Assembly (NCBI RefSeq): GCF_003664585.1
Contig: NZ_RCHI01000023.1
Location: 1-43,042 of the forward strand
Origin: Paenirhodobacter hankyongi
GTDB lineage: Bacteria > Pseudomonadota > Alphaproteobacteria > Rhodobacterales > Rhodobacteraceae
Length of the DNA: 43,042 bases
Direction of reading: 5' to 3'
The translations under genes and the position numbers were made by a program. Positions 27,831 through 42,710 of this stretch are shown in pieces; position 1 is the first letter of the stretch, and every line of letters begins with the position of its first letter. The notes under the pieces were generated by a model, which was not told where the DNA came from, searched no databases, and was given only the letters and a program-made list of their open reading frames with translations.

Positions 27831-27853
27831 TCCGGTCTTCCCGTCAGGAGATC

Positions 27854-28260: not shown

Positions 28261-28266
28261 CCGCGG

Positions 28267-28329: not shown

Positions 28330-28347
28330 CCAAAAAAGGACCGTGGC

Positions 28348-28548
28348 ATGAAAGCCCAAGAACTCAAGGCGAAGACGCCTGATGAGCTCCGCGACGCGCT
28401 GATCGCGCTGAAGAAGGAAGCCTTCAACCTCCGCTTCCAGCAGGCCACCGGCCAGCTCGAGAACACCGCCCGCATGCGCAATGTCCGTCGCGACGTCGCC
28501 CGCATCCAGACGGTGCTGAACGCCAAAGCCGCTGAAGCCGCGAAGTAA
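28348..28548 (+). CDS. rpmC: 50S ribosomal protein L29
   Basis: L29 lies next to L23 at the tunnel exit. The 66-residue product starts [19 protein letters not shown] at ATG 28348, with AAGGA 7 nt upstream; an in-frame start at 28327 would add 7 unrelated residues. It has the family's [23 protein letters not shown] segment in its C-terminal helix region (residues about 33-55). It is the first gene after the tRNA-Gln interruption and is followed after 11 nt by rpsQ. Confidence 0.96.
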
Positions 28549-28559
28549 GGAGTCTTCCG

Positions 28560-28793
28560 ATGCCCAAACGTATCCTGCAAGGCGTCGTCACCTCGGACAA
28601 GAATGACCAGACGGTCACCGTCCTCGTGGAACGCCGCTTCAAGCATCCGCTTCTCCAGAAGACGGTGCGGAAGTCGAAGAAATACCGCGCCCATGACGCG
28701 GAGAACACTTTCAAGACCGGTGACACCGTTCGCATCGAAGAGTGCGCGCCGATCTCGAAAACGAAACGCTGGAAGGTTGTCGTCGAGGCCTGA
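28560..28793 (+). CDS. rpsQ: 30S ribosomal protein S17
   Basis: S17 is an early-binding OB-fold protein of the 30S body. The 77-residue product starts [21 protein letters not shown] and has [18 protein letters not shown] and the [20 protein letters not shown] core. A 77-nt gap to rplN contains two hairpins: CGATAAAC/GTTTATCG (28811-28831) and TGGGG/CCCCA (28838-28852). Confidence 0.97.
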
Positions 28794-28870
28794 CTTCTGT
28801 CAGGTCCCGGCGATAAACGTTCAGTTTATCGAAACCCTGGGGCTCGTCCCCAAAGGTCGGGAGTAACCAA

Positions 28871-29239
28871 ATGATCCAGATGCAGACCAATCTGGATGTC
28901 GCTGACAACTCCGGCGCACGCCGAGTTCAGTGCATCAAGGTCCTGGGCGGCTCGCATCGCCGCTACGCATCCGTGGGCGACATCATCGTGGTGTCGGTCA
29001 AGGAGGCGATTCCGAAGGGCCGCGTGAAGAAGGGGGACGTCCGCAAGGCCGTCGTCGTTCGCACCGCCAAGGAAGTCCGTCGCGAAGATGGCACCGCCAT
29101 CCGCTTCGACCGCAACGCCGCCGTCATCCTGAACAACCAGGGCGAACCGGTCGGCACCCGTATCTTCGGGCCGGTCGTTCGCGAACTGCGCGCGAAGAAC
29201 TTCATGAAGATCATCTCGCTCGCTCCGGAGGTGCTGTAA
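28871..29239 (+). CDS. rplN: 50S ribosomal protein L14
   Basis: L14 forms an intersubunit bridge and is the binding site of silencing factor RsfS. The 122-residue product starts [27 protein letters not shown] and ends with [21 protein letters not shown], both diagnostic. It is the first gene of the classic spc set. Its stop overlaps the rplX start by one base. Confidence 0.97.
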
Positions 29240-29544
29240 TGGCTGCGAAGCTCCGCAAAGGCGACAAGGTCGTCGTTCTCGCCGGCAAGGACAAAGGCAA
29301 GCAGGGTGAAATCACCGCTGTCATGCCGAAGGACAACAAGGCCGTCGTCGAAGGCGTGAACATGGCGATCCGCCATACCCGCCAGACCCAGACCTCGCAG
29401 GGTGGCCGCATCGCCAAGGCGATGCCGATCGACCTGTCGAACCTCGCGCTCGTCGATGCCAACGGCAAGGCGACCCGCGTCGGCTTCCGTATCGAAGGCG
29501 AGGCCAAGGTCCGTTACGCCAAGACCACCGGGGAGGCGATCTGA
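29239..29544 (+). CDS. rplX: 50S ribosomal protein L24
   Basis: L24 is an assembly initiator on the 50S subunit. The 101-residue product starts [20 protein letters not shown], a KOW motif, and continues with [14 protein letters not shown]. The start ATG 29239 overlaps the rplN TAA; longer in-frame versions run into rplN. Its stop overlaps the rplE start (TGATG). Confidence 0.97.
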
Positions 29545-30104
29545 TGCTCGACCAGGCAACCTACACGCCCCGCCTGAAAACGCTGTACAAGGACACGATC
29601 CGTCCGGCGATGAAGGAAGAGTTTGGCTTCAAGAACGACATGCAGATCCCGCGTCTGGACAAGATCGTCCTGAACATGGGCGTCGGCGAAGCCGTCAAGG
29701 ACACCAAGAAGGTCAAGCAGGCCGCCGAAGAGCTGACGCTCATCGCCGGTCAGAAGGCTGTCATCACCCACGCCAAGAAGTCGGTCGCCGGCTTCCGCGT
29801 TCGTGAAGAGATGCCGCTTGGCTGCAAGGTGACCCTGCGCGGTGACCGCATGTATGAATTCCTCGACCGCCTGATCAACGTGGCCCTGCCGCGCGTCCGC
29901 GACTTCCGCGGCGTGAAGGGCTCTTCGTTCGATGGCCGTGGCAACTACGCGATGGGGCTCAAAGAGCAGATCGTGTTCCCCGAAATCGACTTCGACAAGG
30001 TCGACGAGGTGCTCGGCATGGACATCATCATCTGCACCACCTCGAGCGTGGACGCGGAAGCGAAGGCGCTGTTGAAGCATTTCAACATGCCGTTCAACAG
30101 CTGA
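29544..30104 (+). CDS. rplE: 50S ribosomal protein L5
   Basis: L5 binds 5S rRNA and contacts the P-site tRNA. The 186-residue product has [18 protein letters not shown] near residues 36-53, [22 protein letters not shown] and the C-terminal [18 protein letters not shown]. It is coupled to rplX by a TGATG overlap, and rpsN follows after 16 nt. In E. coli the S8 repressor site lies near this gene; I did not identify one here. Confidence 0.97.
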
Positions 30105-30120
30105 TCGCCGGAGAGAATTT

Positions 30121-30426
30121 ATGGCCAAGAAATCCATGGTTGAACGCGAAGTGAAGCGCGCGAAGCTGGTGAAACAGTACGCCACCAAGCGCGCCTCGCT
30201 GAAAGCGATCATCGAAGATCAGTCCAAGCCGATGGAAGAGCGCTTCAAGGCGACTCTGAAGCTCGCGGAACTGCCCCGCAACTCGTCGGCGACCCGGCTG
30301 CACAACCGGTGCCAGCTGACCGGTCGTCCGCATGCTTACTATCGTAAGCTCAAACTCTCGCGGATCATGCTCCGTGACCTGGCCTCGTTCGGCCGGATCC
30401 CGGGCATGGTGAAGTCGAGCTGGTAA
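30121..30426 (+). CDS. rpsN: 30S ribosomal protein S14
   Basis: S14 is a late-binding head protein. The 101-residue product is the long, zinc-free form: it has [19 protein letters not shown] near residues 55-73 and ends [15 protein letters not shown], without the CxxC pairs of the short zinc form. GGAGAG precedes the ATG, and rpsH follows after 13 nt. Confidence 0.97.
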
Positions 30427-30439
30427 GGGAGAGACGGGA

Positions 30440-30838
30440 ATGTCTGTGAACGATCCTCTCGGCGATATGCTGACCCGCATCCGCAACGCGCAAATGCGCG
30501 GCAAGTCCACCGTGCGCACCCCCGCGTCCAAGCTTCGTGCCTGGGTGCTCGACGTGCTGGCGGCGGAAGGCTACATCCGTGGCTACGAGAAGAAGGAAGG
30601 CACGCTCGGCCTGCCGGAACTCGAGATCTCGCTCAAGTACTTCGAGGGCACCCCGGTGATCCGCGAACTCAAGCGCGTCTCGACCCCCGGCCGTCGCGTC
30701 TACGCTTCGGTCAAGGAGATCCCGACGGTCCGTCAGGGCCTGGGCATCTCGATCGTCTCCACGCCCAAGGGCGTCATGACGGACGCGGCTGCGCGCACTG
30801 CCAACGTTGGCGGTGAAGTGCTCTGCACCGTGTTCTAA
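30440..30838 (+). CDS. rpsH: 30S ribosomal protein S8
   Basis: S8 is a primary 16S rRNA-binding protein and, in E. coli, the translational repressor of the spc operon. The 132-residue product starts [21 protein letters not shown] and carries the C-terminal [22 protein letters not shown] and GEVLCTVF, all typical. It is followed after 10 nt by rplF. Confidence 0.97.
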
Positions 30839-30848
30839 GGAGGGAAGC

Positions 30849-31382
30849 ATGTCTCGTATTGGTAAAAAACCGGTCGAGCTGCCCGCTGGCACCACTGCCA
30901 CGCTGGACGGTCAGACCATCGAAGTGAAGGGCCCGAAAGGGAGCCGCAGCTTCACCGCCACCGACGACGTGACCCTCACGCTCGAGGGCAACACCGTCAA
31001 GGTCACCCCGCGTGGCACGTCCAAGCGGGCGCGTCAGCAGTGGGGCATGGCCCGCTCGATGATCGAAAACCTCGGCGTCGGCGTCACCACCGGCTTCAAG
31101 AAAGAGCTCGAGATCCAGGGCGTGGGTTACCGCGCCGCGGTGCAGGGCAAGATTCTGAAGCTCTCGCTCGGCTATTCGCACGAAGTGAACTTCGAGGTGC
31201 CCGAAGGCGTGACCGTCACGTCGGCGAAGCCCACGGAAATCACCGTCGAAGGCATCGACCAGCAGCTGGTCGGTCAGGTCGCGGCCAACATCCGCGAGTG
31301 GCGGCAGCCGGAGCCCTACAAGGGCAAGGGCATCCGCTACAAGGGCGAGTACGTCTTCCGCAAGGAAGGCAAGAAGAAGTAA
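30849..31382 (+). CDS. rplF: 50S ribosomal protein L6
   Basis: L6 lies near the sarcin-ricin loop and the factor-binding site. The 177-residue product starts [19 protein letters not shown] at ATG 30849 with AAGGAGG upstream, in preference to an in-frame start inside rpsH. The C-terminal [18 protein letters not shown] is the RNA-binding signature. rplR follows after 11 nt. Confidence 0.97.
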
Positions 31383-31393
31383 GGGTGGCAAAA

Positions 31394-31753
31394 ATGGCGA
31401 ACAACAAACGCGAACTGTTCCTCAAGCGCCGCCTGCGCGTGCGGAACAAGCTTCGTTCGATGGCCAACGGGCGCCTGCGCCTCTCGGTCCATCGGTCCTC
31501 GAAGAACATCAGCGTCCAGCTGATCGACGACGTCAAGGGCGTGACCCTTGCCTCGGCCTCGACTCTCGAAAAAGAGCTCGGCGTCGTTGGCAAGAACAAC
31601 GTCGAAGCGGCGGCGAAGATCGGTGCGGCGATTGCCGAGCGCGCGAAGGCGGCGGGTGTCGAAGAATGCTACTTCGACCGTGGCGGCTTCCTCTTCCACG
31701 GGAAGATCAAGGCGCTTGCCGATGCGGCCCGCGAAGGCGGCCTGAAGTTCTGA
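31394..31753 (+). CDS. rplR: 50S ribosomal protein L18
   Basis: L18 delivers 5S rRNA to the large subunit with L5. The 119-residue product starts [20 protein letters not shown], has [20 protein letters not shown] and ends with [24 protein letters not shown] hairpin follows its stop in the 125-nt gap before rpsE. Confidence 0.97.
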
Positions 31754-31759
31754 TCCGGT

Positions 31760-31779
31760 GGGGGACGTCCGCGTCCCCC
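31760..31779 (+). other. rplR-rpsE intercistronic hairpin
   Basis: GGGGGACG (31760-31767) and CGTCCCCC (31772-31779) form a perfect 8-bp stem with loop TCCG, 6 nt after the rplR stop. No T tract follows, so full termination is unlikely. The rest of the 125-nt gap before rpsE shows no clear promoter. Confidence 0.5.
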
Positions 31780-31878
31780 CGATGATCCGGGAATGGCCCG
31801 GCGGTTCGCCGCTTCGGGTCGTTCACCAGGATTGGACAAAACGGCGTGTGCGCACGCCATCACGAAAAGGAATGCCTC

Positions 31879-32439
31879 ATGGCAGAACGTGAACATCGCC
31901 GGGACCGCCGCGCCGAGCGCGAGGAAACCCCGGAATTCGCCGATCGTCTGGTTGCGATCAACCGTGTGTCGAAAACCGTGAAGGGCGGCAAGCGCTTCGG
32001 TTTCGCCGCGCTCGTGGTGGTCGGTGACCAGCGCGGCCGCGTCGGCTTCGGCAAGGGCAAGGCCAAGGAAGTTCCGGAAGCGATCCGCAAGGCGACCGAA
32101 CAGGCGAAGCGTTCGCTCGTCCGCGTTCCGCTGCGCGACGGCCGCACGCTGCACCACGACGTCGAGGGCCGTCACGGCGCCGGCAAGGTGGTCATGCGCA
32201 CCGCCGTTGCCGGTACCGGGATCATCGCCGGCGGCCCGATGCGTGCCGTCTTCGAGATGCTGGGCGTGCAGGACGTGGTTGCGAAGTCGATCGGCTCGCA
32301 GAACCCGTACAACATGATCCGGGCCACGCTCGACGGCCTGAAGAAGGAAGCCTCGCCCCGTCACGTTGCGGCTCGCCGCGGCAAGAAGGTGGCGGACATC
32401 CTCGCCAAGCCCGAAGCCGACGCTTCGGCCGAAGCCTGA
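31879..32439 (+). CDS. rpsE: 30S ribosomal protein S5
   Basis: S5 affects decoding accuracy and lies at the mRNA entry site. The 186-residue product starts [16 protein letters not shown] at ATG 31879 with AAGGA upstream; the charged N-terminal extension is common in alphaproteobacteria. The family core [20 protein letters not shown] and [17 protein letters not shown] follow. It precedes rpmD by 12 nt. Confidence 0.97.
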
Positions 32440-32451
32440 GGAGACTGACCG

Positions 32452-32643
32452 ATGACGAAGAAAACCATCGTCGTGCAGCAGGTGGCCTCGGCCGCCCGCC
32501 GTCCCGCGATCCAGACCGCGACCCTGAAGGGTCTCGGCCTGAACAAGATCCGCCGCACCCGTGAGCTGGAAGATACCCCGGCGATCCGCGGCATGGTCAC
32601 CAAGATCTCGCACCTCGTGAAGATCATCGAAGAGCGCGGCTGA
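32452..32643 (+). CDS. rpmD: 50S ribosomal protein L30
   Basis: L30 is a small 50S protein found in most but not all bacteria. The 63-residue product has the hallmark [20 protein letters not shown] and [21 protein letters not shown]. It is the last ribosomal gene of the window: rplO and secY, which usually follow, are absent, and a strong terminator lies 23 nt after the stop. Confidence 0.97.
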
Positions 32644-32666
32644 GCGCCCTTCGCGACGAACGAAAG

Positions 32667-32692
32667 CGCCCCGGCCAGGCCGGGGCGTTTTT
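32667..32692 (+). terminator. Intrinsic terminator of the spc block
   Basis: CGCCCCGGCC and GGCCGGGGCG (32667-32687) are perfectly complementary around a single A, so the working loop is probably CCAGG; TTTTT follows. It ends the ribosomal region. Confidence 0.92.
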
Positions 32693-32727
32693 CATTGGAA
32701 CCTGCCCGCACGACGAAGGAGACGGTG

Positions 32728-33060
32728 ATGGACATGGCACAGCAGAAGGCGGAGACGCTGCGGACCTTCCGCGAGATCGCTGCGATGGAGCCGCTGCCCG
32801 AGCGTGGCCGCGTGGCCTTCCAGTTCGTCGCCGAGGATCCGGGCGCCGATTGGGACGGATTCGGCGAGGCGGTCGAGGACCTGGGCTATGACGCCGAGGG
32901 CTTCGAGGCGGTGGACGAAGACGAGGAAGACTGCCTCGAGATCATCACGCCCGAGATGGCGCTGACGGCCGAGGGGCTTTGGGCCGAGGAAGAGAAGCTC
33001 ACCCTGCTCGCCGCGGTCTATGGCTTCATCCCCGACGGCTGGGGATTCGTCGGCGCCTGA
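32728..33060 (+). CDS. RraB-like regulator of ribonuclease E activity
   Basis: The 110-residue acidic product starts MDMAQQKAETLRTFRE at ATG 32728, with AAGGAG 6 nt upstream; an in-frame start at 32695 lies inside the terminator. The pattern of a short N-terminal helix, FQFVAEDP, an Asp/Glu-rich middle and EIITPEMALTAEGLWAEE followed by AVYGFIPDGWGFVG fits the RraB family, whose E. coli member binds RNase E and inhibits mRNA decay. This is a family-level call; the gene is much shorter in its acidic tail than some relatives. It starts just after the spc terminator, and no promoter is evident. Confidence 0.65.
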   Translation: MDMAQQKAETLRTFREIAAMEPLPERGRVAFQFVAEDPGADWDGFGEAVEDLGYDAEGFEAVDEDEEDCLEIITPEMALTAEGLWAEEEKLTLLAAVYGFIPDGWGFVGA

Positions 33061-33186
33061 GCGGCCCGGGCCGACGCGCGGCGCGGCCGCGCGATCGGCA
33101 TTGCTTCCCCGAAAAGCCGGGCAGCTTGCAATTTTTGCGTCCGGAGTATCGAATCAGAGTTCCGATGCCCTGCCCGGACCGATCCG

Positions 33187-33954
33187 ATGACGCCAACGCC
33201 CTCGAAAACCGTGCGCTCGGTCGAACGCACCCTGCAACTGCTCGAATTCATGAACCGGGTCGCCGTGGCCCGGGTTCAGGATCTGGCGGCGCAGACCGGC
33301 CTGCCGGCGCCGACGGTGGTGCGTCTGCTCGAGACACTGATCGCCGCGGGCTATGTGCGCAAGCTGGGCCGGACGGCTGGCTATTGCGTGACCGAGAGGG
33401 TTGCGGCGCTCGGGGCGGGGCATCACGGGCTGCCGCAGGTTTTCGATGCCGCGCGACAGGCCGCCGAGGCGCTGACCCGGCGCACTTTGTGGCCGGCAGC
33501 GCTTGCCACGCTGGACGTCGACGCGCTGGTGATCCGCTTCAGCACCATCCCGATGAGCCCGCTGTCGCATTATCAGTCGACGATCAACCGGCGGATGACG
33601 CTGCTCGACTACGCCCATGGCCGCGCCTATCTCGCCTTCTGTCCGACGGCCGAGCGGCGCCATCTGGTCGCGCTGCTGCAGCAATCGGCCGCGACCCCGG
33701 CCGAGTCGCAGGCGATCGAGGAACGCGCGGCGGCGGTGGTGGCGATGACCCGCGCCAGCGGCTTTGGCGAGCGCAGCGGCAATGTCCAGCCCGAGACCCA
33801 TTCCCTCGCGCTGCCGCTGCGGCTTGGGGCAAAGCTCGTCGGCACGCTGGGCGTCACCTATTTCGCCCGTGCGCAGGTCGATGTGCCGGCGCTGAAGGCC
33901 GAGTTGCGGGCCGCCGTTGCGGCTTGCGAAACCGGCGCTCAGCCGGTCGGGTAA
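33187..33954 (+). CDS. IclR-family transcriptional regulator
   Basis: The 255-residue product has an N-terminal winged helix-turn-helix (SVERTLQLLEFMNR, then VQDLAAQTGLPAPTVVRLLETL at about residues 30-51) and the C-terminal IclR effector domain (from about 85). It resembles the MhpR/PcaR group that controls aromatic catabolism. It is the first gene of the accessory region, so control of the nearby catabolic genes or of the adjacent quinone reductase is plausible. Its 3' end overlaps the convergent flavoprotein gene by 16 bp. A weak promoter-like TTGCAA-N17-TCGAAT lies at 33126-33154. Confidence 0.85.
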   Translation: MTPTPSKTVRSVERTLQLLEFMNRVAVARVQDLAAQTGLPAPTVVRLLETLIAAGYVRKLGRTAGYCVTERVAALGAGHHGLPQVFDAARQAAEALTRRTLWPAALATLDVDALVIRFSTIPMSPLSHYQSTINRRMTLLDYAHGRAYLAFCPTAERRHLVALLQQSAATPAESQAIEERAAAVVAMTRASGFGERSGNVQPETHSLALPLRLGAKLVGTLGVTYFARAQVDVPALKAELRAAVAACETGAQPVG

Positions 33955-34526
33955 CGGGTCTTCGCGCGGTCGTCGTCCTGCCCCGAGGCGCAGCGGCGGG
34001 GCGCGGCATGACGCAGATGCCGGACATAGTGCATAGCCGATTGCGCCAGCGCCGCGTCGTCGCAGTCGCGCACCCCCGTCAGGGTGAAGGCGGGCAGGTA
34101 GTGCATCCCGGTATGGATCGCGAGCAGCTCGAAGGGCAGGGTGACCGCGTCGAGCGTGTGCCCGTAGCGGCCATCGGGGCTGTAATCCGCGCCGTTCGAG
34201 CCGGTCGAGACCGCGATGCCGAGCGTCTTGAGCTGCAGCGCCCGCCCCCCCGGACCATAGGCCCAGCCCCGTTTCAGGATCGTGACCATCCATTCCGACA
34301 GTCGCGGCGGGCAGGAATACCAGGTCAGCGGGAATTGCAGCACGATCCGGTCGTGGGCCTCGAGCAGCGCGCGCTCGTGCGCGCCGTCGATCGGGCCGTC
34401 CGGATAGGTTGCGTAAAGGTCGTGGACCGTGCAGGTCGCGCAGTCGCGGGCCGCCGCGGCCCAGGCGGCGTTGACCCGGCTGTGCGCCAGGTCCGGATGC
34501 GCAACGATCACCAGCGTGCCTGCCAT
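33939..34526 (-). CDS. NAD(P)H:quinone oxidoreductase-like flavoprotein (KefF/YwrO/MdaB type)
   Basis: The 195-residue product has the flavodoxin-like fold of short quinone reductases: LVIVAHPD at residues 5-12, then FPLTWYSCPPRLSEWM near 64-79, and RGWAYGPGGRALQ with the following STGS. The predicted reaction is two-electron reduction of quinones with NAD(P)H and bound FAD or FMN, in the cytoplasm. GGGGAGAAGAGAG precedes the ATG. It is convergent with the IclR gene and divergent from the cupin gene (about 160 bp). In an aromatic-degradation setting it may protect from quinones formed from catechols; this is inference. It could also be a KefF-like regulator, but no KefC channel gene is present. 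Confidence 0.85.
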   Translation of the reverse strand: MAGTLVIVAHPDLAHSRVNAAWAAAARDCATCTVHDLYATYPDGPIDGAHERALLEAHDRIVLQFPLTWYSCPPRLSEWMVTILKRGWAYGPGGRALQLKTLGIAVSTGSNGADYSPDGRYGHTLDAVTLPFELLAIHTGMHYLPAFTLTGVRDCDDAALAQSAMHYVRHLRHAAPRRCASGQDDDRAKTRYPTG

Positions 34527-34687
34527 CTCTCTTCTCCCCTCGTTCGGGGCACCGTCTCACCGCGCGGACGGTGGCTCAAGCGGGCCGGACGCCAATTCCG
34601 CCTCGTGGAACTGGCGCAGGTTTCGCGTGCGCCGCATGCGCTCCCGTGAGAGCTGTGGAGCGGACAGGACGATGCAGGGAGATGGCC

Positions 34688-35605
34688 ATGTTCGACGACA
34701 GCGATCCGCGCAAGGCGCTTCTCAGGACCGCCCCGGCCGAGGCGACGGCGACCGGTCCGTTCTGCCTGCCGCAGGTCGGGCGCTTCCACGAGGACCCGCC
34801 GCTTGCGACGGGCACCGGCTGGCGGGCGTGGATGCTCGGCGCGTCGCGGATGGTGCTGCGGGTGGTCGAGCTGGATGGCACGGCCGAGTTCGCGCGCTCG
34901 GGGCAGCTTGACGAATACATGGTGTTCGCGCTCGAACCCTCGGTGCGCTTCACCATCACCACCGGCGCGGGCGCGGTCGAGGATCACCCGGGCAACCATC
35001 TGTTCATCGTGCCGCCGGGCGACAGCCGGGTGACGCTGCAGGGCCGTGGCACGGTGACCTTCGTCTTCACCGCCCGTTCCGCCGACCTAGTGGCGCAATG
35101 TCCGCCCGCGGCGCGGCCCGCCGCGCCCAATCCCTGCATCCCGCCGTTCCAGCCCTGGCCCGACCCGCCCGGCGGCTTCCGGCTGCGGGCCTATGATCTG
35201 GATGTGCCGGTGCAGGAGGGGCGCTTTGGCCGCATCTTCCGCTGCACGACGCTGATGGTGAACATCTTGCCGCGCTTCACCGCGCCGCGCGACGCCGCGA
35301 AGGTCTCGCCGCATTTCCACGCGAGCTTCGAACAGGTCTCGCTGACGCTGGCGGGGGAGTTCGAGCATTTCCTGCGCTGGCCCTGGACGCCGGATCAGGC
35401 GCACTGGTTGCCCGATCTGCGCATCGCCTGTTCCAGCCCCTCGGCCACGGTGCTGCCGCCGCCGGCGCTGCACACCACGCTCTGGCTGTCGCCCGAGTCG
35501 CAGATCGTCGACATCTTCGCGCCGCCGCGGATGGATTTCTCGCAGCGCGCGGGCTGGGTCCTGAATGCGGAGGACTATCCGATGGCGCGCACCGAGATCG
35601 AATAG
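34688..35605 (+). CDS. Two-domain cupin protein, function unknown
   Basis: The 305-residue product starts MFDDSDPRKALL at ATG 34688, with AGGGAG (34676-34681) spaced 6 nt; ATG 34682 would overlap that site. Two cupin-like halves are visible. The N-terminal half, at about residues 55-135, has no clear metal ligands. The C-terminal half has HFHASFEQVSLTLAGE (H209, H211, E215) and a later His in ALHTT (H262), which suits a bound metal ion. No secretion signal is seen. Metal cupins include ring-cleaving dioxygenases and isomerases, but the specific reaction cannot be read. The gene lies tail-to-tail with tetR, 10 bp apart. Its location suggests a role in the same pathway. Confidence 0.65.
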   Translation: MFDDSDPRKALLRTAPAEATATGPFCLPQVGRFHEDPPLATGTGWRAWMLGASRMVLRVVELDGTAEFARSGQLDEYMVFALEPSVRFTITTGAGAVEDHPGNHLFIVPPGDSRVTLQGRGTVTFVFTARSADLVAQCPPAARPAAPNPCIPPFQPWPDPPGGFRLRAYDLDVPVQEGRFGRIFRCTTLMVNILPRFTAPRDAAKVSPHFHASFEQVSLTLAGEFEHFLRWPWTPDQAHWLPDLRIACSSPSATVLPPPALHTTLWLSPESQIVDIFAPPRMDFSQRAGWVLNAEDYPMARTEIE

Positions 35606-35615
35606 CGCGCGGCGC

Positions 35616-36596
35616 TCAGCGCCCGCCGCCGGGCGGCTCCGGGCCGCCGATCTCGCCAAGCGCGGGCATGCTGGCGATGACGATCTTTTCATGCGCGATC
35701 GCCGGCAGCGCCGGCAGCGGCCGGGTGCAGATCTGCTGCGCTTCGGCTGCACTCATGCCGAAGGCAAGCAGGATGTGGCGCGCGATCTGCTCGGGGTAAT
35801 CCGCGGGCGTGCACCCCTGGGTGATCGAGACCATGGCCGCCGCCACCGCCCCCATCAGGATGTCGCGGCCGATCTCGGCGGTGCTGATCGAGAACACCCC
35901 CTGATCGAGACCGCGCCGGATCGTCACCAGCGAATTGTGCCAGACCGTTTCGCCGAAGGTGTGGCCCGGCGCGCTCGAATGGATCATCGCCCAGCCCCAG
36001 GCCGGGTTCTTCTCGGCCGCGTGCAGATAGTAGCGAATCGCCACGGCGGTCTGTTCGGCCGGGCTGTCGAGTGCGGCGAGCATCAGGTGAACGGCGCGGT
36101 CGAACTCGCCGGTCAGTTCCTCCTGAAGCTGGTATTTCAGCTGCTCGAGATCGTCGAAGTGATTGTAGAAGGTGCCGCGCGCGACGCCGGCGCATTTGCA
36201 GATGTCCTCGATGCGCGAGGCCTGACCGGTCTCCTGGCCAAAGCAGGTGAAGGCGGCGGTCAGGAGGGTGTTGCGCGAGCGCGCCCGGCGGGCGGCGCCG
36301 ATCTCGGCGCGGCGCCCGCTGCCGGCGGTCCGGTAACCGAGGGTCGAAAGCTGGCTGTCGTCGTTTTCCGCCATGAACCGGTCTTGCTGCCCTTGCATCT
36401 GCGCGGGAGAATCGCCCGGCTTGCCGCATTGCGGCGCGGTGCCGGCCGCCCCCTCCGGTATGGTCTGGATTGTCTCCGAGGTCCAGCTTTGCGCAGGCGG
36501 GACAGGCCCGGAGGCCCCGCCGCGCGCAGGGGGAGGGCCGTCCCGGGTGGGGGTGGCTGGCGGCTCGCCCCGGCGCGGCCGTGTTCTGTCAACCAT
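35616..36596 (-). CDS. TetR-family transcriptional regulator
   Basis: The helix-turn-helix lies at about residues 126-149 of the 326-residue reading: RIEDICKCAGVARGTFYNHFDDLEQL-type segment preceded by RSRNTLLTAAFTCF. The C-terminal part is helical, as in TetR ligand domains. The start is uncertain. ATG at 36596 has AGGA 11 nt upstream but gives a Pro/Gly/Arg-rich N-terminal extension of about 75 residues. ATG at 36374 gives a conventional 252-residue TetR but has no ribosome binding site. It is divergent from the dioxygenase operon, and the intergenic palindromes near 36700 are its probable operator, overlapping a candidate tetR promoter. Confidence 0.85.
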   Translation of the reverse strand: MVDRTRPRRGEPPATPTRDGPPPARGGASGPVPPAQSWTSETIQTIPEGAAGTAPQCGKPGDSPAQMQGQQDRFMAENDDSQLSTLGYRTAGSGRRAEIGAARRARSRNTLLTAAFTCFGQETGQASRIEDICKCAGVARGTFYNHFDDLEQLKYQLQEELTGEFDRAVHLMLAALDSPAEQTAVAIRYYLHAAEKNPAWGWAMIHSSAPGHTFGETVWHNSLVTIRRGLDQGVFSISTAEIGRDILMGAVAAAMVSITQGCTPADYPEQIARHILLAFGMSAAEAQQICTRPLPALPAIAHEKIVIASMPALGEIGGPEPPGGGR

Positions 36597-36690
36597 TTGA
36601 AATCACGTCCTGCAAAAGCGCCCCAAGGCCCCTCTGAGGGCGGTGGAAGATGGAATGTTCCCAGAAGTTATTCCGTCTGGTGGAATTTGT

Positions 36691-36722
36691 AAAATGACGA
36701 TTTGTCATTTTGACATTCTGTC
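36691..36722. promoter_or_regulatory. Overlapping palindromic operator, probably for TetR
   Basis: AAAATGAC (36691-36698) and GTCATTTT (36704-36711) are a perfect inverted repeat with a 5-nt spacer. TGTCA-TTT-TGACA (36703-36715) and GACA-TTC-TGTC (36712-36722) overlap it. The result is four alternating TGAC/GTCA half-sites spaced about 8 bp apart. TTGACA of a possible plus-strand -35 lies inside, and TTTACA for the tetR promoter abuts it, so one protein could repress both directions. Confidence 0.65.
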
Positions 36723-36796
36723 GTAGTCTTTCCAGGCAGCTTGGAGGGCTGCGAGGGAGAGGATCGGCCCGGGAGAGCCGAACGGAGGAGATCACG

Positions 36797-36823
36797 ATGG
36801 CTGACGCACCGCGACCGGGCTGA
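36797..36823 (+). CDS. Possible eight-residue leader peptide
   Basis: ATG 36797 opens a frame reading MADAPRPG then TGA, preceded by an excellent ribosome binding site GGAGGAG (36784-36790). It sits about 210 nt before the dioxygenase gene. It could be a translated leader, or the remnant 5' end of a gene lost by deletion. There is no sign of a full downstream gene in this frame. Confidence 0.3.
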   Translation: MADAPRPG

Positions 36824-37036
36824 GCCGGTCCGTGCCGCGTGGGGCCTGCGCCGGTCGGTGCGGGGCTGCGGGCTGAACATTCCATGACATTTCGCAGTGG
36901 GCTGCGCGCACATGACGTGTGACGGCCGGGGTGTGCCCCGGGCGGGCCCTCTGCCACCGCCACTTGCGACATCCGGCGCCACATCCCGTGGCCGCCGCAG
37001 CGAGCATCATTGACTGAACACGGGAAGGACCAAGAC

Positions 37037-37951
37037 ATGGGGATCAACCGCATCGATCACGCCGCGATCTACGTGGGCGACATCGGCAAGGCGCTGAGCT
37101 GGTACGAGGACGTGCTGGGCTTGACGGTGCTGAGCCGCAGCGACGACAGCGCGCATCTGGCCTGCCGCGGCGCGGCCGCCGATCTGACGCTGGTGAAGGG
37201 CACCTGCTCGCTCGACAATTTCACCTTCGGCGTCGACGACGAGGAGGATCTCGACCGGGTCGGCGCGATCCTGACGCGCGAGGGCGTGGCGCATGAACGT
37301 TTCGCCGGCGACAGCCGCCCGGGCGAGGGCGCGGCGCTGAAATTCCACCTGCCCTCGGGGCATCAGCTGCGCCTGGCCACCGGCGGGGCCGAGCGGCGCG
37401 CCGGGATCTCGGATTTCGACGCCCGCGGCTCGCATGTGCCGTGCGACATGGACCACATCAACCTGCTCGGCGAGGTGGAGCCCGAGGTGATGCGCGACTT
37501 CCTGATGATGATCGGGTTCAAGTCGTCGCTGAACATCTCGGTCGAGGGCAAGCTCGCCGGGATCTGGCTGCGCGGCTCGGCCTATGACCACGACATCGCC
37601 TACATGAAGGCGGTGAACCCGGCGCACCGGCTGCACCACGTCGCCTTCGCGGTCGAGGACGGCAACCATTATTTCCGCCTCTCGGACCGGCTGATGGACA
37701 CCGGCCACCGCTGGGAATTCGGCCCCGGGCGCCACAACGCGGGGCTTGGCTCCTCGACCGGCTTCGGCACCAACAATTACGCCTACATCTTCGACCCCTT
37801 CGGCAACCGCAACGAGTTCTCCTCGGGGATGGAGCAGTTCGCCGACGACGCGACGCCGCTCAGCGTCGACATCGTGCCGGCGCAGATGCCCGAGGTGATG
37901 AACGGCTGGGGCTACGAGATGGCCGAGACCTTCATGACGGTCGGGTCCTGA
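37037..37951 (+). CDS. Type I extradiol ring-cleavage dioxygenase (BphC/HsaC-like)
   Basis: The 304-residue product has two vicinal-oxygen-chelate modules; the N-terminal half starts INRIDHAAIYVGDIGKALSWY. The C-terminal half carries the iron ligands expected for the family: H140 (MDHINLLG), H201 (LHHVAFAV) and E260 (PFGNRNEFSSG). The reaction is Fe(II)- and O2-dependent meta cleavage of a catechol. I chose ATG 37037 with GAAGGA upstream; an in-frame start at 37010 adds nine residues. It is the first enzyme gene of the operon. The hydrolase two genes downstream implies a substituted catechol whose cleavage product is a ketone, as in biphenyl or secosteroid pathways. Confidence 0.92.
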   Translation: MGINRIDHAAIYVGDIGKALSWYEDVLGLTVLSRSDDSAHLACRGAAADLTLVKGTCSLDNFTFGVDDEEDLDRVGAILTREGVAHERFAGDSRPGEGAALKFHLPSGHQLRLATGGAERRAGISDFDARGSHVPCDMDHINLLGEVEPEVMRDFLMMIGFKSSLNISVEGKLAGIWLRGSAYDHDIAYMKAVNPAHRLHHVAFAVEDGNHYFRLSDRLMDTGHRWEFGPGRHNAGLGSSTGFGTNNYAYIFDPFGNRNEFSSGMEQFADDATPLSVDIVPAQMPEVMNGWGYEMAETFMTVGS

Positions 37952-38006
37952 CCACGGGCGCAGGGCGGTCTCCCCGTGCGGGGAGACGCCCGACGGAGGG
38001 CATTCC

Positions 38007-38477
38007 ATGACGATCACCTGGCAGCAGTTCCATGCGCTCGAGGATCTGGTCCTGCGCTTCTGGGCCTGCGTCGATGAAACGGCGCCGATCGAGGGGCCGG
38101 AGCTGTTCACCGCGGACGGTGCGCTGGTCATCGAGAGCTTCCGCGCCGAGGGGCAGGCGGCGCTGGCGCGCTATTTCACCGCGCGCCGCGCGCTCTCGGC
38201 CGAGCGCGGGCGCCTCACCCGCCATCTGTGCACCAACCTGCGGTTGCTGCCCGGCGCGGGTGTGCGACTGGCGGCGACGATCACGGTGTTTTCCGGCAGC
38301 GGGGCACGCCCGGTCGCGCTTGGGCCGCCCTCGTCGCTGGCCGATTTCACCTTCGACTGTGTCGAGACGGCCGCGGGCTGGCGCCTTGCCCGCGTCACCG
38401 GCGCGCTGATCTTCGCCGGCGCCGACACGCCCGACCTGAAGCAGGCCGCCGCCGCGGCAAGGGGAGAGACGACATGA
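38007..38477 (+). CDS. NTF2/SnoaL-like protein
   Basis: The 156-residue product has the NTF2-like cone pattern: N-terminal helix FHALEDLVLRFWACVDE, PELFTADGALVIESFRAEG, RLTRHLCTNLRLL and a final GWRLARVTGALIFAG strand. Members include polyketide cyclases, ring-hydroxylating dioxygenase small subunits, dehydratases and isomerases. No ring-hydroxylating large subunit is present, so it is not a dioxygenase subunit here. It overlaps the hydrolase gene by 4 nt (ATGA) and is co-translated with it. An isomerase, dehydratase or binding role in the pathway is inference. Confidence 0.75.
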   Translation: MTITWQQFHALEDLVLRFWACVDETAPIEGPELFTADGALVIESFRAEGQAALARYFTARRALSAERGRLTRHLCTNLRLLPGAGVRLAATITVFSGSGARPVALGPPSSLADFTFDCVETAAGWRLARVTGALIFAGADTPDLKQAAAAARGETT

Positions 38478-39154
38478 GAAAGGTTGCGCTGATCCATGGC
38501 TGGGGCGGCTCCTACGCCGCGACCTGGCAGGCCGACGGCTGGGACGACGCGCTGCGCGCGGCGGGGTTCGAGCCGGTGGGGTTCGACATCGCCGGGCATG
38601 GGCCGCAGGGCGGCTCGCACGATCCGGCCGATTACGCCGATCTCGCCGGCGATCTGGCGGCGCGGCTGCCGGACGATCTGTTCGGCGCCATCGGCTTCTC
38701 GCTGGGCACGAAGCTGCTGCTCGAGCTGGAAGTGCGGCGGCCGGGGGCGAACGGGCGGCTGGTGCTGGGCGGCATCGGCGACAATCTCTTCGCGCCGGAA
38801 CAGGCCGGCCCCGTGCTTGTCGCCGCGCTGCGCGGCGCGGCGCAGGAACCGCCCACGCCGCAGGTCGCGGCGCTGCTCGACTATGCGCGGCGCAGCGGCT
38901 CCGACCCGGCCTGCCTTGCGGCCGTGCTGGAGCGGCCGGCGAATCCGGTGCTGACCGAGGCTCGGCTCGCGCAGGTGCGCACGCCGATTCTGATCTTCAA
39001 CAGCCGCGCCGACGCGGTGGCGCAGCCCGACACCCGCCTGTGTGCCGCGCTGCCCGGCGCCACGCATCGGCTGATCGACGGCACCGGCCATGTCGGCCTG
39101 ACCTCCGACATCCGCTTCCGCGACGCCGCGCTTGCCTTTCTGAGCCGGGGCTGA
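38474..39154 (+). CDS. Alpha/beta hydrolase, candidate meta-cleavage-product hydrolase
   Basis: The 226-residue product has the oxyanion motif LIHGWGGS near residues 6-13, the nucleophile elbow GFSLG (S76), D180 in SRADAV and H206 in GTGHVG, giving a complete Ser-Asp-His triad. It is shorter than BphD/HsaD/MhpC (about 280 residues), so the cap domain must be small, and a thioesterase or other esterase is possible. It lies in an operon with an extradiol dioxygenase, which favours C-C bond hydrolysis of the ring-cleavage product. The start overlaps the upstream stop codon. Confidence 0.8.
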   Translation: MRKVALIHGWGGSYAATWQADGWDDALRAAGFEPVGFDIAGHGPQGGSHDPADYADLAGDLAARLPDDLFGAIGFSLGTKLLLELEVRRPGANGRLVLGGIGDNLFAPEQAGPVLVAALRGAAQEPPTPQVAALLDYARRSGSDPACLAAVLERPANPVLTEARLAQVRTPILIFNSRADAVAQPDTRLCAALPGATHRLIDGTGHVGLTSDIRFRDAALAFLSRG

Positions 39155-39196
39155 CGCCGCCGGCAGACCACGACACCAACCAAAGGGAGGAGACCC

Positions 39197-40369
39197 ATGT
39201 TCGACGCGTCCACCACCATGATCGAGCGCATCCGCGCGATCCTGCCGCAGATCGCGGCCAATGCCGTGCAGGCCGAAGGGGACCGCATGGTCCCGAAGGA
39301 GAACATCGACCTGCTGAAGGCCACCGGTCTGCACCGCGCCTTCCAGCCCAGGGCCTATGGCGGGCTCGAGATGCGGGTGCCCGAGTTCGAGAACTGCATC
39401 GCGCTGATCGCCACCGCCTGCGGCTCGACCGCCTGGGCCTTCTCGCTGCTGGCCGAGCACAACCACCAGATCGCGCTCTATTCGCGCGAACTGCAGGACG
39501 AGATCTGGGGCGAGGACCCGGACACCGTCGCCTCCTCCTCGATCGCGCCCTATGGCAAGTCGGTCGAGGTCGAGGGCGGGGTGCGCTTTTCGGGGGAATT
39601 CGGCTGGTCCTCGGGCTGCGACCATGCGCAATGGGCGATCCTCGGCTTCCTGCGCGACGCGCCCGAGGGCGGCAAGGTCTACAGCTTCGCGATCCTGCCG
39701 CGCGCCGATTACGAGATCCGCGACACCTGGTTCACCCAGGGGATGCGCGGCACCGGCTCGAAGACGCTGGTGGTCAAGGACGCCTTCGTGCCGAACCACC
39801 GCATCGAGAGCGTCCCGGCGCTGATGAGCCTGACCTCGGCGGGGGGGCATCTGTATCCCGACAGCAAGATCTTCCACGTCCCCTTCATCTATGTCTTCGC
39901 AAGCTGCTTCTCCTCGGTCAGCCTCGGCATCGCGGAGCGGATGATCGCGCTTTACACCGAGCGCACCCAGGGCCGCGTGCGCGCCTATACCGGCGCGAAG
40001 GTCGGCCAGTCGATCCCCGCCTGCATGCGTCTGGCCGAAAGCGCGCATCAGGTGGCGGCGGGCCGCGCCTTCCTGGAAAAGACCTGGGAGGACATGCGCG
40101 ACCACGCCGAGCGCCGGGTTTTCCCCGATGCGCAGAAGATGGCCTATTGGCGCACCAACCAGGCCTATGCGGTGAAGATGTTCGTCGCCGCGGTGGACCG
40201 GCTGTTCGAGGCCTCGGGCGGTTCGGCCTGGTTCGACGACGCCGAGGCGCAGCGGCTGTTCCGCAACAGCCACATGACCGCCGCCCATGCCTATACCGAC
40301 TATGACATCTGCGCGCAGATCCTCGGCCGTGCGCTGATGGGGCTCGAGCCGGACCCGTCCCTGTTCTGA
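39197..40369 (+). CDS. Flavin-dependent monooxygenase, oxygenase component (HsaA/HpaH C2 type)
   Basis: The 390-residue product has the acyl-CoA-dehydrogenase fold of group D flavin monooxygenases: an N-terminal helical domain, a beta domain with FSGEFGWSSGCDHAQWAI near 131-148, and a C-terminal four-helix bundle. It uses reduced flavin from a separate reductase, encoded immediately downstream, to hydroxylate a phenol to a catechol. GGGAGGAG precedes the ATG. Closest recalled families are HsaA (a secosteroid phenol) and the Acinetobacter p-hydroxyphenylacetate hydroxylase C2. The product would feed the extradiol dioxygenase. A dibenzothiophene-type monooxygenase is a less likely alternative. 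Confidence 0.88.
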   Translation: MFDASTTMIERIRAILPQIAANAVQAEGDRMVPKENIDLLKATGLHRAFQPRAYGGLEMRVPEFENCIALIATACGSTAWAFSLLAEHNHQIALYSRELQDEIWGEDPDTVASSSIAPYGKSVEVEGGVRFSGEFGWSSGCDHAQWAILGFLRDAPEGGKVYSFAILPRADYEIRDTWFTQGMRGTGSKTLVVKDAFVPNHRIESVPALMSLTSAGGHLYPDSKIFHVPFIYVFASCFSSVSLGIAERMIALYTERTQGRVRAYTGAKVGQSIPACMRLAESAHQVAAGRAFLEKTWEDMRDHAERRVFPDAQKMAYWRTNQAYAVKMFVAAVDRLFEASGGSAWFDDAEAQRLFRNSHMTAAHAYTDYDICAQILGRALMGLEPDPSLF

Positions 40370-40448
40370 GCCCGTCCGGCCCGGCCTCCCCCCGGGCCGG
40401 GCCCCCGCGCCGGCGCGCCCTGCGCGCGTCGTCCTGACAGGAGTTCCC

Positions 40449-40970
40449 ATGACCGATCTTTCTTCCCCCGCCGCGACCGGGTTCGATCCGCGCGCCTTCC
40501 GCGCCGCGCTTGGCTGCTTTGCCACCGGCATCACGGTGATCACCGCCCAGGCCGGCGGTCGCCGTGTCGGCGTCACCGCGAACAGCTTCAATTCGCTTTC
40601 CCTCGATCCGCCGCTGATCCTGTGGAGCCTGGTGAAGACCTCGGCCAGCTATCCGGTGTTCGAGGCCGCCAGCCATTTCGCGGTGAACATTCTTGCCCAT
40701 GACCAGATCGCGCTGTGCCGCGCCTTTGCCGCGCGGGGCGGGGACAAGTTCGCCGGCCTTGCCCTGCGCGAGGGGCAGGGCGGCTGCCTGCTGCTGCCGG
40801 GCACCTGCGCCAGCATCGAATGCGCGCGCGAGGCGGTTCTCGACGGCGGTGACCACTGGCTGCTGATCGGGCGGGTCACCGGCTTTGCGCAGACCGACGC
40901 CGACCCGCTGCTGTACCACCGCGGCGCCTATTCGCTGGCGCAGCCGCACCCGCAGGCCGCCGCGCCCTGA
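40449..40970 (+). CDS. Flavin reductase (HsaB/HpaC type)
   Basis: The 173-residue product has the flavin-reductase-like split-barrel domain: FRAALGCFATGITVITA near residues 14-30, GVTANSFNSLSLDPPLILW at about 39-57, and the C-terminal PLLYHRGAYSL. It reduces FMN or FAD with NAD(P)H and hands it to the monooxygenase encoded just upstream. An HNA-type ring-hydroxylase role is excluded by its size. AGGAG lies before the start. The 79-nt gap from the upstream gene contains only a GC-rich repeat of CCGGG-type words. Confidence 0.9.
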   Translation: MTDLSSPAATGFDPRAFRAALGCFATGITVITAQAGGRRVGVTANSFNSLSLDPPLILWSLVKTSASYPVFEAASHFAVNILAHDQIALCRAFAARGGDKFAGLALREGQGGCLLLPGTCASIECAREAVLDGGDHWLLIGRVTGFAQTDADPLLYHRGAYSLAQPHPQAAAP

Positions 40971-41003
40971 CCTTCGTCGCACATCATAAGGGAGGAGACC
41001 TTG

Positions 41004-41873
41004 ATGAAGATGACCTGTACCCTGGGCGCCGGCGCGGTTGCGCTTGCGCTTGCCGCGCCGCCCGCCCGCGCGATCGACGTCGGCCCGGCCGATTACACGA
41101 TCCTGCCAAGCGGCACGGCGCTTGCCATGCTCTATCTGCAGCACCTGAGCGCCGACAGCCTCGAGGTGAACGGCACCGCCGTGCCCGGCTCGTCCTTCGA
41201 GGCGAATGTGGGGATCCTGCGCGGCCTCTATTACACCGCCTTCGGCGATCTGCCGGCGGCCTATCACCTCGTCATCCCCTTTGCCGAGATCGGCACCGCC
41301 CGGATCGGCGGCGCGGATCAGCCCACCACCAGCGGCCTTGGCGACACCACGCTCGGCCTGACCGTCTGGCCGGTGCAACCCGACGCGCCCGAGACCGGCA
41401 CCAGCTTCGGCGTCTCGCTCTTCGCGACGCTGCCCACCGGCGGCCATGAGGCGGGGCGCATCGGCATCGGCGAGGGCACCTGGTCGCTGACGCCGCAGAT
41501 CGGCGTGATCCAGGGGCTGGGCGGCGGCTTCTTCTTCGACGGGGCGCTCGATGTCGCCTTCCAGGGCGATCACACCGAGGCCGGGGCCGAGCAGTCGCGC
41601 CGCCCGTCGTGGCAGCTGCAGGCGATGTTGCGCAAGCAATGGGGGCCGGCGACCTCGCTGACGGTCGGCTATTCCGGCCAGCGCGGCGGCGAGCAGAAGG
41701 TGGATGGCGTCGAGACCGGCCTGAAGACCCACCGCGACCAGCTGCGTCTCTACCTGACGCATTTCGTCGATCCCACGACCCAGATCCAGGGGATGCTGGC
41801 GCGCGATTTCAACGTGGAGGGTGGCTTCAAATACGACAGCGCCGTGCAGCTGCGCCTCGTCAAGGTGTTCTGA
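41004..41873 (+). CDS. Outer-membrane channel-like protein (MetA-pathway/phenol type)
   Basis: The 289-residue product starts MKMTCTLGAGAVALAL, with a Sec signal peptide ending ARA at residue 23. ATG 41004 is chosen over TTG 41001 because GGAGGAG (40991-40997) is then 6 nt away. The mature part is made of alternating amphipathic strands and ends in Phe, typical of outer-membrane beta-barrels. Segments such as TSGLGDTTLGLTVWP and ATLPTGGH fit the outer-membrane family found in aromatic-degradation operons (Phenol_MetA_deg, transporter). A role in uptake of a hydrophobic aromatic is inference from family and position. Confidence 0.82.
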   Translation: MKMTCTLGAGAVALALAAPPARAIDVGPADYTILPSGTALAMLYLQHLSADSLEVNGTAVPGSSFEANVGILRGLYYTAFGDLPAAYHLVIPFAEIGTARIGGADQPTTSGLGDTTLGLTVWPVQPDAPETGTSFGVSLFATLPTGGHEAGRIGIGEGTWSLTPQIGVIQGLGGGFFFDGALDVAFQGDHTEAGAEQSRRPSWQLQAMLRKQWGPATSLTVGYSGQRGGEQKVDGVETGLKTHRDQLRLYLTHFVDPTTQIQGMLARDFNVEGGFKYDSAVQLRLVKVF

Positions 41874-41924
41874 CCCCGGCCGGCCCGGAACCTTCCGGGC
41901 CGGTCCTCGCCGAAAGGAGTGACC

Positions 41925-42710
41925 ATGCCGACCCACCCCAATGCCGGTGCCGCCAGGCTGACCGGTTTCCGCGCCCGCCTGCGCGCCGCCGAGCCGCTGC
42001 TGGGCACCTTCCTGAAGATCCCCTCGACGCAGCCGGCCGAGATTCTCGGTCAGCTCGGCTTCGACTTCGCGGTGATCGACGAGGAGCACGCCCCGCTGAA
42101 CCCCGAGACCACGGATGCCATCGTGCTTGCCTGCCGGGCACAGGGCATGGCCGGGCTGGTGCGCGTGCGCAGCCCGGCCGAGATCCTGCGCGTGCTCGAC
42201 AGCGGTGCCGATGGTGTTCTGGTGCCGCATGTGACCGACGCGCCGGCCGCGCGTCTCGCGGTGGCGCGGGCGCGCTATTGCGGCGAGCGGGGCTTCTCCC
42301 CGACCACGCGGGCGGGAGCCTTCGGTGCGATTGGCATGGCGCAGCACATCGCGCAGCAGGATGCGCGCTGTGCGGTGATCGCGATGATCGAGGATGCCGC
42401 AGCGATCGGGGCGATCGACGAGATCGTCGCGGTCGAGGGGCTCGATGCGATCTTCATCGGGCGCGCCGATCTGGCGGTGTCGATGGGCGCCGCGGCCAGG
42501 GCGGGGGAGCTCGAGGCGGCGGTGCACCGGGTGATGGCGGCGGCCGTGGCCGTGGGTCTGCCGGTGCTGATCCTGGCCGCCAATCCGGTCGAGCTGGCGC
42601 ATCTGCGCGAGCGCGGGGCGACGGGCTTCCTCACCGGATCGGATCAGGGCTTCCTGCGGGCGAGCGCGGCGCAGGCCCGCGCAAGCTTCCTGCCGCCATC
42701 CGGGGGATGA
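41925..42710 (+). CDS. HpcH/HpaI-family class II aldolase
   Basis: The 261-residue product has the TIM-barrel layout of HpaI: FDFAVIDEEHAP (H55), LVRVRS (R80), metal ligands E156 in MIEDAAAI and D182 in IGRADLAVSMG. These match the His, Arg, Glu and Asp of HpaI. The family cleaves 4-hydroxy-2-oxo acids to pyruvate and an aldehyde. ATG 41925 is used; an in-frame GTG at 41919 lies inside the AAAGGAG ribosome binding site. As last gene of the operon it fits the final step of meta cleavage. A hydratase that would supply its substrate is not in the window. Confidence 0.9.
   Translation: MPTHPNAGAARLTGFRARLRAAEPLLGTFLKIPSTQPAEILGQLGFDFAVIDEEHAPLNPETTDAIVLACRAQGMAGLVRVRSPAEILRVLDSGADGVLVPHVTDAPAARLAVARARYCGERGFSPTTRAGAFGAIGMAQHIAQQDARCAVIAMIEDAAAIGAIDEIVAVEGLDAIFIGRADLAVSMGAAARAGELEAAVHRVMAAAVAVGLPVLILAANPVELAHLRERGATGFLTGSDQGFLRASAAQARASFLPPSGG

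Follow-up and report, generated by a model that had tools for sequence, protein, structure and literature searches.

Which phenol might be attacked by the compact meta-cleavage operon at the right end of contig NZ_RCHI01000023.1 of Paenirhodobacter hankyongi, and what becomes of the opened ring? The window analyzed here is this entire contig (C16; 43,042 bp) of a 3.8-Mb genome, which shares its genus with a sister genome (G006) and which we place in the Rhodobacteraceae, the family name assumed here for the host. An initial annotation of the window had described an "HsaABCD-like" meta-cleavage operon to which it assigned no substrate. A meta-cleavage operon without an assigned substrate, with a lower pathway that departs from the standard one, is supported by the present analysis; the kinship with HsaABCD is not. 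We hold it about evenly probable that the locus carries an operon, spread by horizontal transfer, for the catabolism of an uncharged phenol, substrate and reactions being deduced from the sequence. The enzyme types are individually known; their combination is as yet unexplained, and the literature searched, which left out most subscription journals, contained no account of this cluster.

Two enzymes of the operon lack the charged residue of their acid-using relatives

The oxygenase passes the NCBIfam model of the C2 4-hydroxyphenylacetate hydroxylase (NF045920; 703.1 versus a cut-off of 650), shares 62% identity with annotated 4-hydroxyphenylacetate hydroxylases, and yields a 540-bit match with 2jbr, which we take to be HPAH, the C2-type p-hydroxyphenylacetate 3-hydroxylase of Acinetobacter baumannii. 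The C2 residues H120, S146, S171, and H396, to which we ascribe active-site roles, are retained in the alignment. R263 of C2, presumably in contact with the acid group of the substrate, is replaced: the aligned position is Ile in 12 of 12 cluster oxygenases and Arg in the annotated hydroxylases L039 and L040 (the motif was not located in a Photobacterium row). The R263D variant of the C2 enzyme is reported in a review to acquire tyramine activity (PMC10816480). The initial annotation had proposed a phylogeny against HsaA and HpaH as a check. In a tree of 23 rows, the 12 cluster oxygenases grouped together (96/96). Next to them stood three hydroxylases, namely two annotated as 4-hydroxyphenylacetate hydroxylase and the unannotated Photobacterium record, and the single row by which HsaA was represented lay apart; seven other rows were ungrouped, and several branches were long. 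The oxygenase also fails the HsaA model (305.3 versus a cut-off of 450), as the reductase does that of HsaB (157.6 versus 230).

The dioxygenase carries the 2-His-1-Glu metal site named initially (H140, H201, and E260, counted from the Met at 37037), which aligns with that of XylE, and it keeps the His and Tyr aligned to the XylE active site; the roles of these ligands and residues are assumed here. The nearest model is that of catechol 2,3-dioxygenase (135 bits, under the cut-off of 320). The HpaD model scores 123.3 bits (cut-off 321.4), and HsaC is absent among the 17 families matching at E ≤ 0.001; identity to the one HsaC compared is 22%. R243 of HPCD, which we take to bind the substrate acid, corresponds to Phe in 12 of 12 cluster dioxygenases and in a relative of 57% identity (L035), and to Arg in HpaD of Gemmobacter fulvus (L110). 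HPCD R293 was dropped as a discriminating residue, because the Gemmobacter HpaD has no Arg there either. Thus, two operon enzymes are without the charged residue of their acid-using relatives, and with Ile and Phe at these positions throughout the 12 clusters, 4-hydroxyphenylacetate is probably not the substrate. If so, annotations that name the module oxygenase a 4-hydroxyphenylacetate hydroxylase need correction, and the group would represent a hydroxylase clade that switched to neutral phenols.

The genes form a mobile module

Relatives were collected as 11 named loci (L019–L029) from one scan of genome contigs, onto which the 11 proteins of the window were mapped by tblastn. The features of the window are as follows.

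33117..42710, no strand: extent of the mobile module; on the left bounded by the point where the sister-genome copy ceases to match, on the right by the aldolase stop codon (matching extends to 42694)
33187..33954, + strand: IclR-family regulator; passes NCBIfam NF007342, a model that we link to MhpR (396.3 versus a cut-off of 251); orthologue in 9/11 named loci
33939..34526, − strand: flavodoxin-fold NAD(P)H quinone reductase-like protein; KefF model nearest (168.4, under the cut-off of 210); 9/11 named loci, partial in L021
34688..35605, + strand: bicupin of 305 aa with one complete metal site (H209, H211, E215, H262); no Pfam or NCBIfam family; proposed aldolase partner
35616..36374, − strand: TetR-family regulator (Pfam)
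37037..37951, + strand: type I (VOC) extradiol dioxygenase
38007..38477, + strand: SnoaL_4/NTF2-like protein (Pfam), candidate hydratase or isomerase
38474..39154, + strand: short α/β hydrolase, candidate C-C hydrolase (S76-D180-H206)
39197..40369, + strand: oxygenase component, C2-type 4-hydroxyphenylacetate 3-hydroxylase clade (C2 R263 replaced by Ile231)
40449..40970, + strand: flavin reductase; only positions 3–164 of the 309-position hydroxylase-reductase model matched
41004..41873, + strand: outer-membrane channel-like protein (Phenol_MetA_deg; Pfam)
41919..42710, + strand: HpcH/HpaI-type aldolase, scoring too low for either the HpaI or the GarL equivalog

Pfam recovered all enzyme classes (IclR, Flavodoxin_2, TetR, a Glyoxalase-type extradiol dioxygenase, SnoaL_4, Abhydrolase_6, an Acyl-CoA_dh_2-type monooxygenase, Flavin_Reduct, Phenol_MetA_deg, and HpcH_HpaI), in agreement with the gene list drawn up initially; the cupin on that list has the metal motif and a bicupin-like model of modest confidence but matches neither Pfam nor NCBIfam at E ≤ 0.001. 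The seven genes between 37037 and 42710 lie on the same strand with intergenic gaps of −4 to 79 bp. A consensus promoter scan found no promoter, and terminator prediction gave no more than in shuffled sequence. Of the span first assigned to the cluster (32728 to 42710), the right end held and the start did not: the match with the sister-genome copy starts only at 33117, and 32728 is the start of a separate small gene (32728–33060) adjoining the ribosomal operon.

This small gene, RraB-like, follows rpsE and rpmD (names read from translations). The stretch from 25038 to 33060 is collinear (97%) with contig C19 of the sister genome, in which rplO and secY come after the small gene. The window's genome has these two genes on C34, preceded by other genes, and the window itself enters the module at ∼33117. 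The sister copy, 94% identical over 33117–41927 and 86% over 41943–42694, sits elsewhere (C16 of that genome). As the sister genome keeps the small gene, rplO, and secY together and holds the module at another site, the module moved as a unit; it apparently landed between the RraB-like gene and rplO–secY of the ribosomal protein operon, where a false contig join is possible.

The gene-neighborhood search proposed in the initial annotation recovered the module, whole or in part, in all 11 named loci. Dioxygenase and TetR regulator were present in 11 of 11; the SnoaL-like protein (split in two in L028), the hydrolase, the oxygenase, the flavin reductase, and the outer-membrane protein (an N-terminal piece only in L023) each in 10; the cupin in 10 (in pieces in L021, and 3′ of the aldolase in L026); and the aldolase in 8. 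By the same mapping, the aldolase was not found in L021, L028, and L029, the IclR regulator and quinone reductase not in L026 and L028, the cupin not in L028, and no operon gene beyond the dioxygenase in L029; synteny is incomplete in L021, L028, and L029. The flanks vary among the nine loci in which they were read (L019–L024, L026, L028, and L029), the left flanks of L025 and L027 being covered by tblastn alone. A further copy resides on a Pseudosulfitobacter plasmid (L036). The dioxygenase is rare: among sampled genomes, it occurs in 4 of 394 from the family (E ≤ 1e-40) and in 1 of 385 from the class (E ≤ 1e-30), the window's own included in both; a near-identical oxygenase occurs in 2 of 18 genomes of the genus, again including its own, and any match in 5. 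The module illustrates a whole catabolic set moving between sites and replicons in Rhodobacteraceae.

In Gemmobacter serpentinus (L029, 10907–18997), homology to the dioxygenase ends at residue 285 and is followed by genes that, from their translations, resemble a transposable (Mu-like) phage; in Salipiger thiooxidans (L021, 15744–19550), neither the β-keto-acid cleavage enzyme (BKACE) described below nor the aldolase was found right of the outer-membrane gene, which is followed by recombinase- and ParB-like genes. That missing pathway genes follow directly right of the window was also considered and rejected: the contig stops at 43042, and right of the aldolase in L019, the sister copy, the next long reading frames appear phage-like, by reading alone.

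Lower-pathway genes and the proposed reactions

In all, 13 stretches (the window, L019–L029, and L036) were searched by tblastn for hydratase, semialdehyde dehydrogenase, isomerase, and FAA genes; the query proteins, taken from L110, from L039, and from the genome of the window, recovered themselves in L110, L039, and L100. No FAA, HpaH, HpaE, or CHM-isomerase homologue was found inside the module in any of the 13, and the acetaldehyde dehydrogenase DmpF was not searched for; a DmpG search gave no signal in any control genome. The initial claim of missing genes therefore holds for a 2-hydroxydienoate hydratase of the FAA type and extends to the semialdehyde dehydrogenase; its other half, the acetaldehyde dehydrogenase, lies outside this search.

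Relatives carry a BKACE gene between the outer-membrane gene and the aldolase, in seven of the eight aldolase-bearing named loci (L020 and L022–L027; not L019) and on the plasmid L036. The one relative run, that of L020, passes NF053538, a model of the 3,5-dioxohexanoate:acetyl-CoA type (485.3 versus 430). BKACE is absent from the window's module, and a supposed remnant in the L019 spacer was unconvincing. The anaerobic breakdown of phloroglucinol is reported to involve a triacetate acetoacetate-lyase of the BKACE family (PMC10470551). On a Burkholderia cenocepacia plasmid (L109, 169–4155), a VOC protein, BKACE, an NTF2-like protein, and a distant oxygenase are adjacent.

Part of the module recurs in another phylum. 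In Rhodococcus opacus strain 9, genes for a flavin reductase, an NTF2-like protein, the hydrolase (43%), an extradiol dioxygenase, the cupin (39%), and the aldolase (37%) stand in a row; this dioxygenase is a different one from that of the module and passes the BphC model, and an MhpA-type hydroxylase is encoded nearby on the opposite strand. In R. opacus G13, the aldolase, cupin, dioxygenase (57%), SnoaL-like protein, and hydrolase adjoin an apparent acetoacetyl-CoA synthetase and thiolase (names read from translations). The spread of the SnoaL-like protein was judged from Pfam matches, SnoaL_4 being found in both clusters; the protein itself, used as query, gave one match in 72,556 plasmid records. 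Across phyla, hydroxylase and dioxygenase vary, and SnoaL-like protein, hydrolase, cupin, and aldolase are constant. The earlier suggestion that the NTF2-like protein or the cupin supplies the missing step is plausible in that both recur with hydrolase and aldolase on the two Rhodococcus plasmids.

The following sequence of reactions is proposed. The substrate would be admitted by the outer-membrane protein and hydroxylated ortho to the hydroxyl group by the two-component monooxygenase; the extradiol dioxygenase would then open the ring, and the quinone reductase might re-reduce catechol or hydroxyquinol lost to autoxidation. The α/β hydrolase, whose initially named triad (S76, D180, and H206, which we take to be catalytic) is invariant in 11 of 11 rows, would cut the ring-fission product. 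One fragment would be readied by the bicupin, the SnoaL-like protein, or both, and the HpaI-type aldolase would split off pyruvate from it. A β-keto acid would remain, for which the relatives would use the operon-borne BKACE, R. opacus G13 apparently acetoacetyl-CoA synthetase and thiolase, and the present strain, by necessity, genes elsewhere.

Within this reading, we prefer a meta-dihydroxy substrate of the resorcinol or alkylresorcinol type, because its fission product would be a poly-keto acid needing neither hydratase nor aldehyde dehydrogenase. This preference draws on the lack of a local hydratase and dehydrogenase, the β-keto-acid enzymes of the relatives, the quinone reductase, and the precedent of hcdABC. 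In that 7-hydroxycoumarin pathway, opening of a trihydroxylated ring is reported to give a dihydroxy-oxo dienedioic acid, which is then hydrolyzed (PMC6222606). The ifc pathway, whose hydroxylase, glyoxalase-type dioxygenase, and cupins are reported to act on a pyranone (PMC11069340), may serve as a further analogy.

In the genome of P. hankyongi itself, contig C21 (L100, 384–6653) harbors a second possible ring-cleavage cluster, with genes for TRAP-like, BphC-like (333-aa VOC protein), and FAD hydroxylase-like products (names by reading) and an FAA_hydrolase protein.

The cupin gene recurs near that of an HpaI-type aldolase

The metal motif of the cupin (H209-x-H211-x3-E215 plus H262; the pattern is one that we presume to be diagnostic of the family) is invariant in 10 of 10 aligned rows, and the predicted structure is bicupin-like at modest confidence (mean pLDDT 70). 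Its surroundings were read in 22 cupin-selected loci: every one of the 10 matches outside the genus, two of which share a genome, and 12 of 27 plasmid records. An HpaI-type aldolase lay at most 1 kb from the cupin in 15 of the 22 and within the fetched stretch in 19; BKACE was present in 7. Because a genome holds only one to four such aldolases (10 genomes counted, the window's included), chance pairing appears unlikely. Near the pair, L056 has the extradiol gene ygiD ∼2.2 kb past the aldolase, and in L102 pca/pob genes adjoin it. No ring-cleavage gene is annotated in the stretches around the pair in L053, L054, and L055. The cupin thus looks like a general partner of the aldolase and not a ring-fission enzyme.

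Clusters of an IclR regulator, DUF6282, HpaI aldolase, and cupin recur (L053, L054, L055, L056, L103, and L104), five of the six with TRAP transporters (the exception is L055); the literature searched yielded no paper on DUF6282. In Mameliella alba (L104, 8001–8899), the annotation splits the cupin gene into two reading frames. The plasmid of Sphingopyxis granuli RW412 (L058, 3496–16191) combines two BKACE, two oxygenase-like proteins of the acyl-CoA-dehydrogenase fold, an NTF2-like protein, cupin, and aldolase.

Tentatively, and as a possibility more than an expectation, we propose a new aerobic route in which an uncharged resorcinol-type phenol would undergo hydroxylation, ring opening to a 2,4,6-trioxo acid, and hydrolysis without need of a hydratase or aldehyde dehydrogenase, in which the unnamed metal bicupin would partner the HpaI-type aldolase, and whose cupin–aldolase pair would also serve several further catabolic clusters, as yet unexplained, among Pseudomonadota and Actinomycetota. 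If correct, this would add a meta-cleavage route ending in β-keto acids and give a function to a Pfam-less cupin recurring in two phyla.

Alternative readings

Several observations weigh against the proposed reading as an operon for an uncharged phenol. An FAA gene lies ∼5.3 kb left of the module in L027, an aldehyde dehydrogenase-like gene ∼4.8 kb left in L020, and FAA_hydrolase-family genes occur at six places in the window's genome, so that the pathway might be a classical one, served by a hydratase in trans. The hydrolase fold matches include DxnB2, BphD, and HsaD, with esterases ranking higher; the fold is at least as near to esterases as to C-C hydrolases and cannot separate the two, and the protein is a candidate C-C hydrolase in this sense. 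There is no BKACE match anywhere in the window's genome or in that of the sister strain, and the β-keto acid step thereby lacks support in its own organism. Finally, no aldolase was found in the stretch of 3 of the 22 cupin loci (L059, L096, and L098; in the last, a 33% aldolase lies ∼15 kb from the cupin, beyond the stretch), and the pair also occurs in clusters without a ring-cleavage gene, so that it may act on more than ring-fission products.

The first alternative, which we consider doubtful although it deserves serious attention, is the classical catechol-type meta-cleavage of a hydrophobic alkylphenol: the hydrolase would release an acid and 2-hydroxypentadienoate, hydration would fall either to the SnoaL-like protein or the cupin or to an FAA-type hydratase encoded outside the module, and the aldolase would yield pyruvate and an aldehyde. 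Hydroxylase, extradiol dioxygenase, hydrolase, and aldolase are all at hand for it, the dioxygenase is nearest to the catechol 2,3-dioxygenase model, and the six FAA_hydrolase places could furnish the hydratase. However, none of the 13 stretches has an FAA-type hydratase or semialdehyde dehydrogenase homologue within the module, the only ones outside being the FAA gene in the left flank of L027 and the aldehyde dehydrogenase-like gene in that of L020, and this alternative would account neither for the BKACE genes nor for the apparent acetoacetate enzymes next to the G13 cluster.

A variant of the 4-hydroxyphenylacetate/homoprotocatechuate pathway with a hydrolytic shortcut releasing formate would accord with the oxygenase, with respect to both identity and NF045920, and with the HpaI family of the aldolase. 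It is nevertheless improbable, given the loss of both arginines in all 12 clusters, the low scores of the dioxygenase against HpaD and of the aldolase against HpaI (115.2 versus a cut-off of 368.8), and the absence from the module of the isomerase, HpaE, FAA, and HpaH of the Gemmobacter cluster. The plain 4-hydroxyphenylacetate pathway was rejected on the model scores, the two lost arginines, and the missing hpa genes.

Quite improbable, too, is a flavonoid or chromone A-ring pathway like fde/ifc in which the two-component oxygenase replaces the FAD hydroxylase. In ifc, an 8-hydroxylated A-ring is reportedly processed by a hydroxylase, a glyoxalase-type dioxygenase, and cupins, but deletion of the α/β hydrolase gene left daidzein degradation unaffected (PMC11069340), and the module has no recognized genes for the remainder of such a molecule. 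A secosteroid pathway of the HsaABCD type, for which the shared classes speak (two-component oxygenase, reductase, extradiol dioxygenase, and α/β hydrolase), is highly improbable in view of the failed HsaA, HsaB, and HsaC models, the separation from the one HsaA row in the tree, and the 22% identity to one HsaC.

Comparison with known systems

The module shares features with several known systems and differs from each of those compared. C2 HPAH (2jbr) resembles the module oxygenase in the match, the equivalog passed, and the aligned active-site residues; it differs at R263 and in its reductase, of which that of the module matches the N-terminal half of the model only. The hpa meta pathway of G. 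fulvus has two-component hydroxylation, type I extradiol cleavage, and an HpaI-family aldolase in common with the module, which lacks isomerase, HpaE, FAA, and HpaH and adds the α/β hydrolase, the SnoaL-like protein, and the cupin, as well as BKACE in its relatives. HsaABCD agrees in enzyme classes, whereas its HsaA, HsaB, and HsaC models fail. The fde/ifc flavonoid A-ring pathway, compared by description, is similar in its hydroxylase, glyoxalase-type dioxygenase, α/β hydrolase, and cupins, but its FAD hydroxylase belongs to another class (PMC11069340). Similarly, hcdABC provides the trihydroxylated ring, extradiol cleavage, and subsequent hydrolysis, but with a class A hydroxylase, an FAA-family hydrolase, and an acidic substrate (PMC6222606). 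The anaerobic phloroglucinol pathway reportedly employs a BKACE-family enzyme on triacetate (3,5-dioxohexanoate), as would the relatives of the module, but is anaerobic and reductive and proceeds with no ring-cleaving dioxygenase (PMC10470551).

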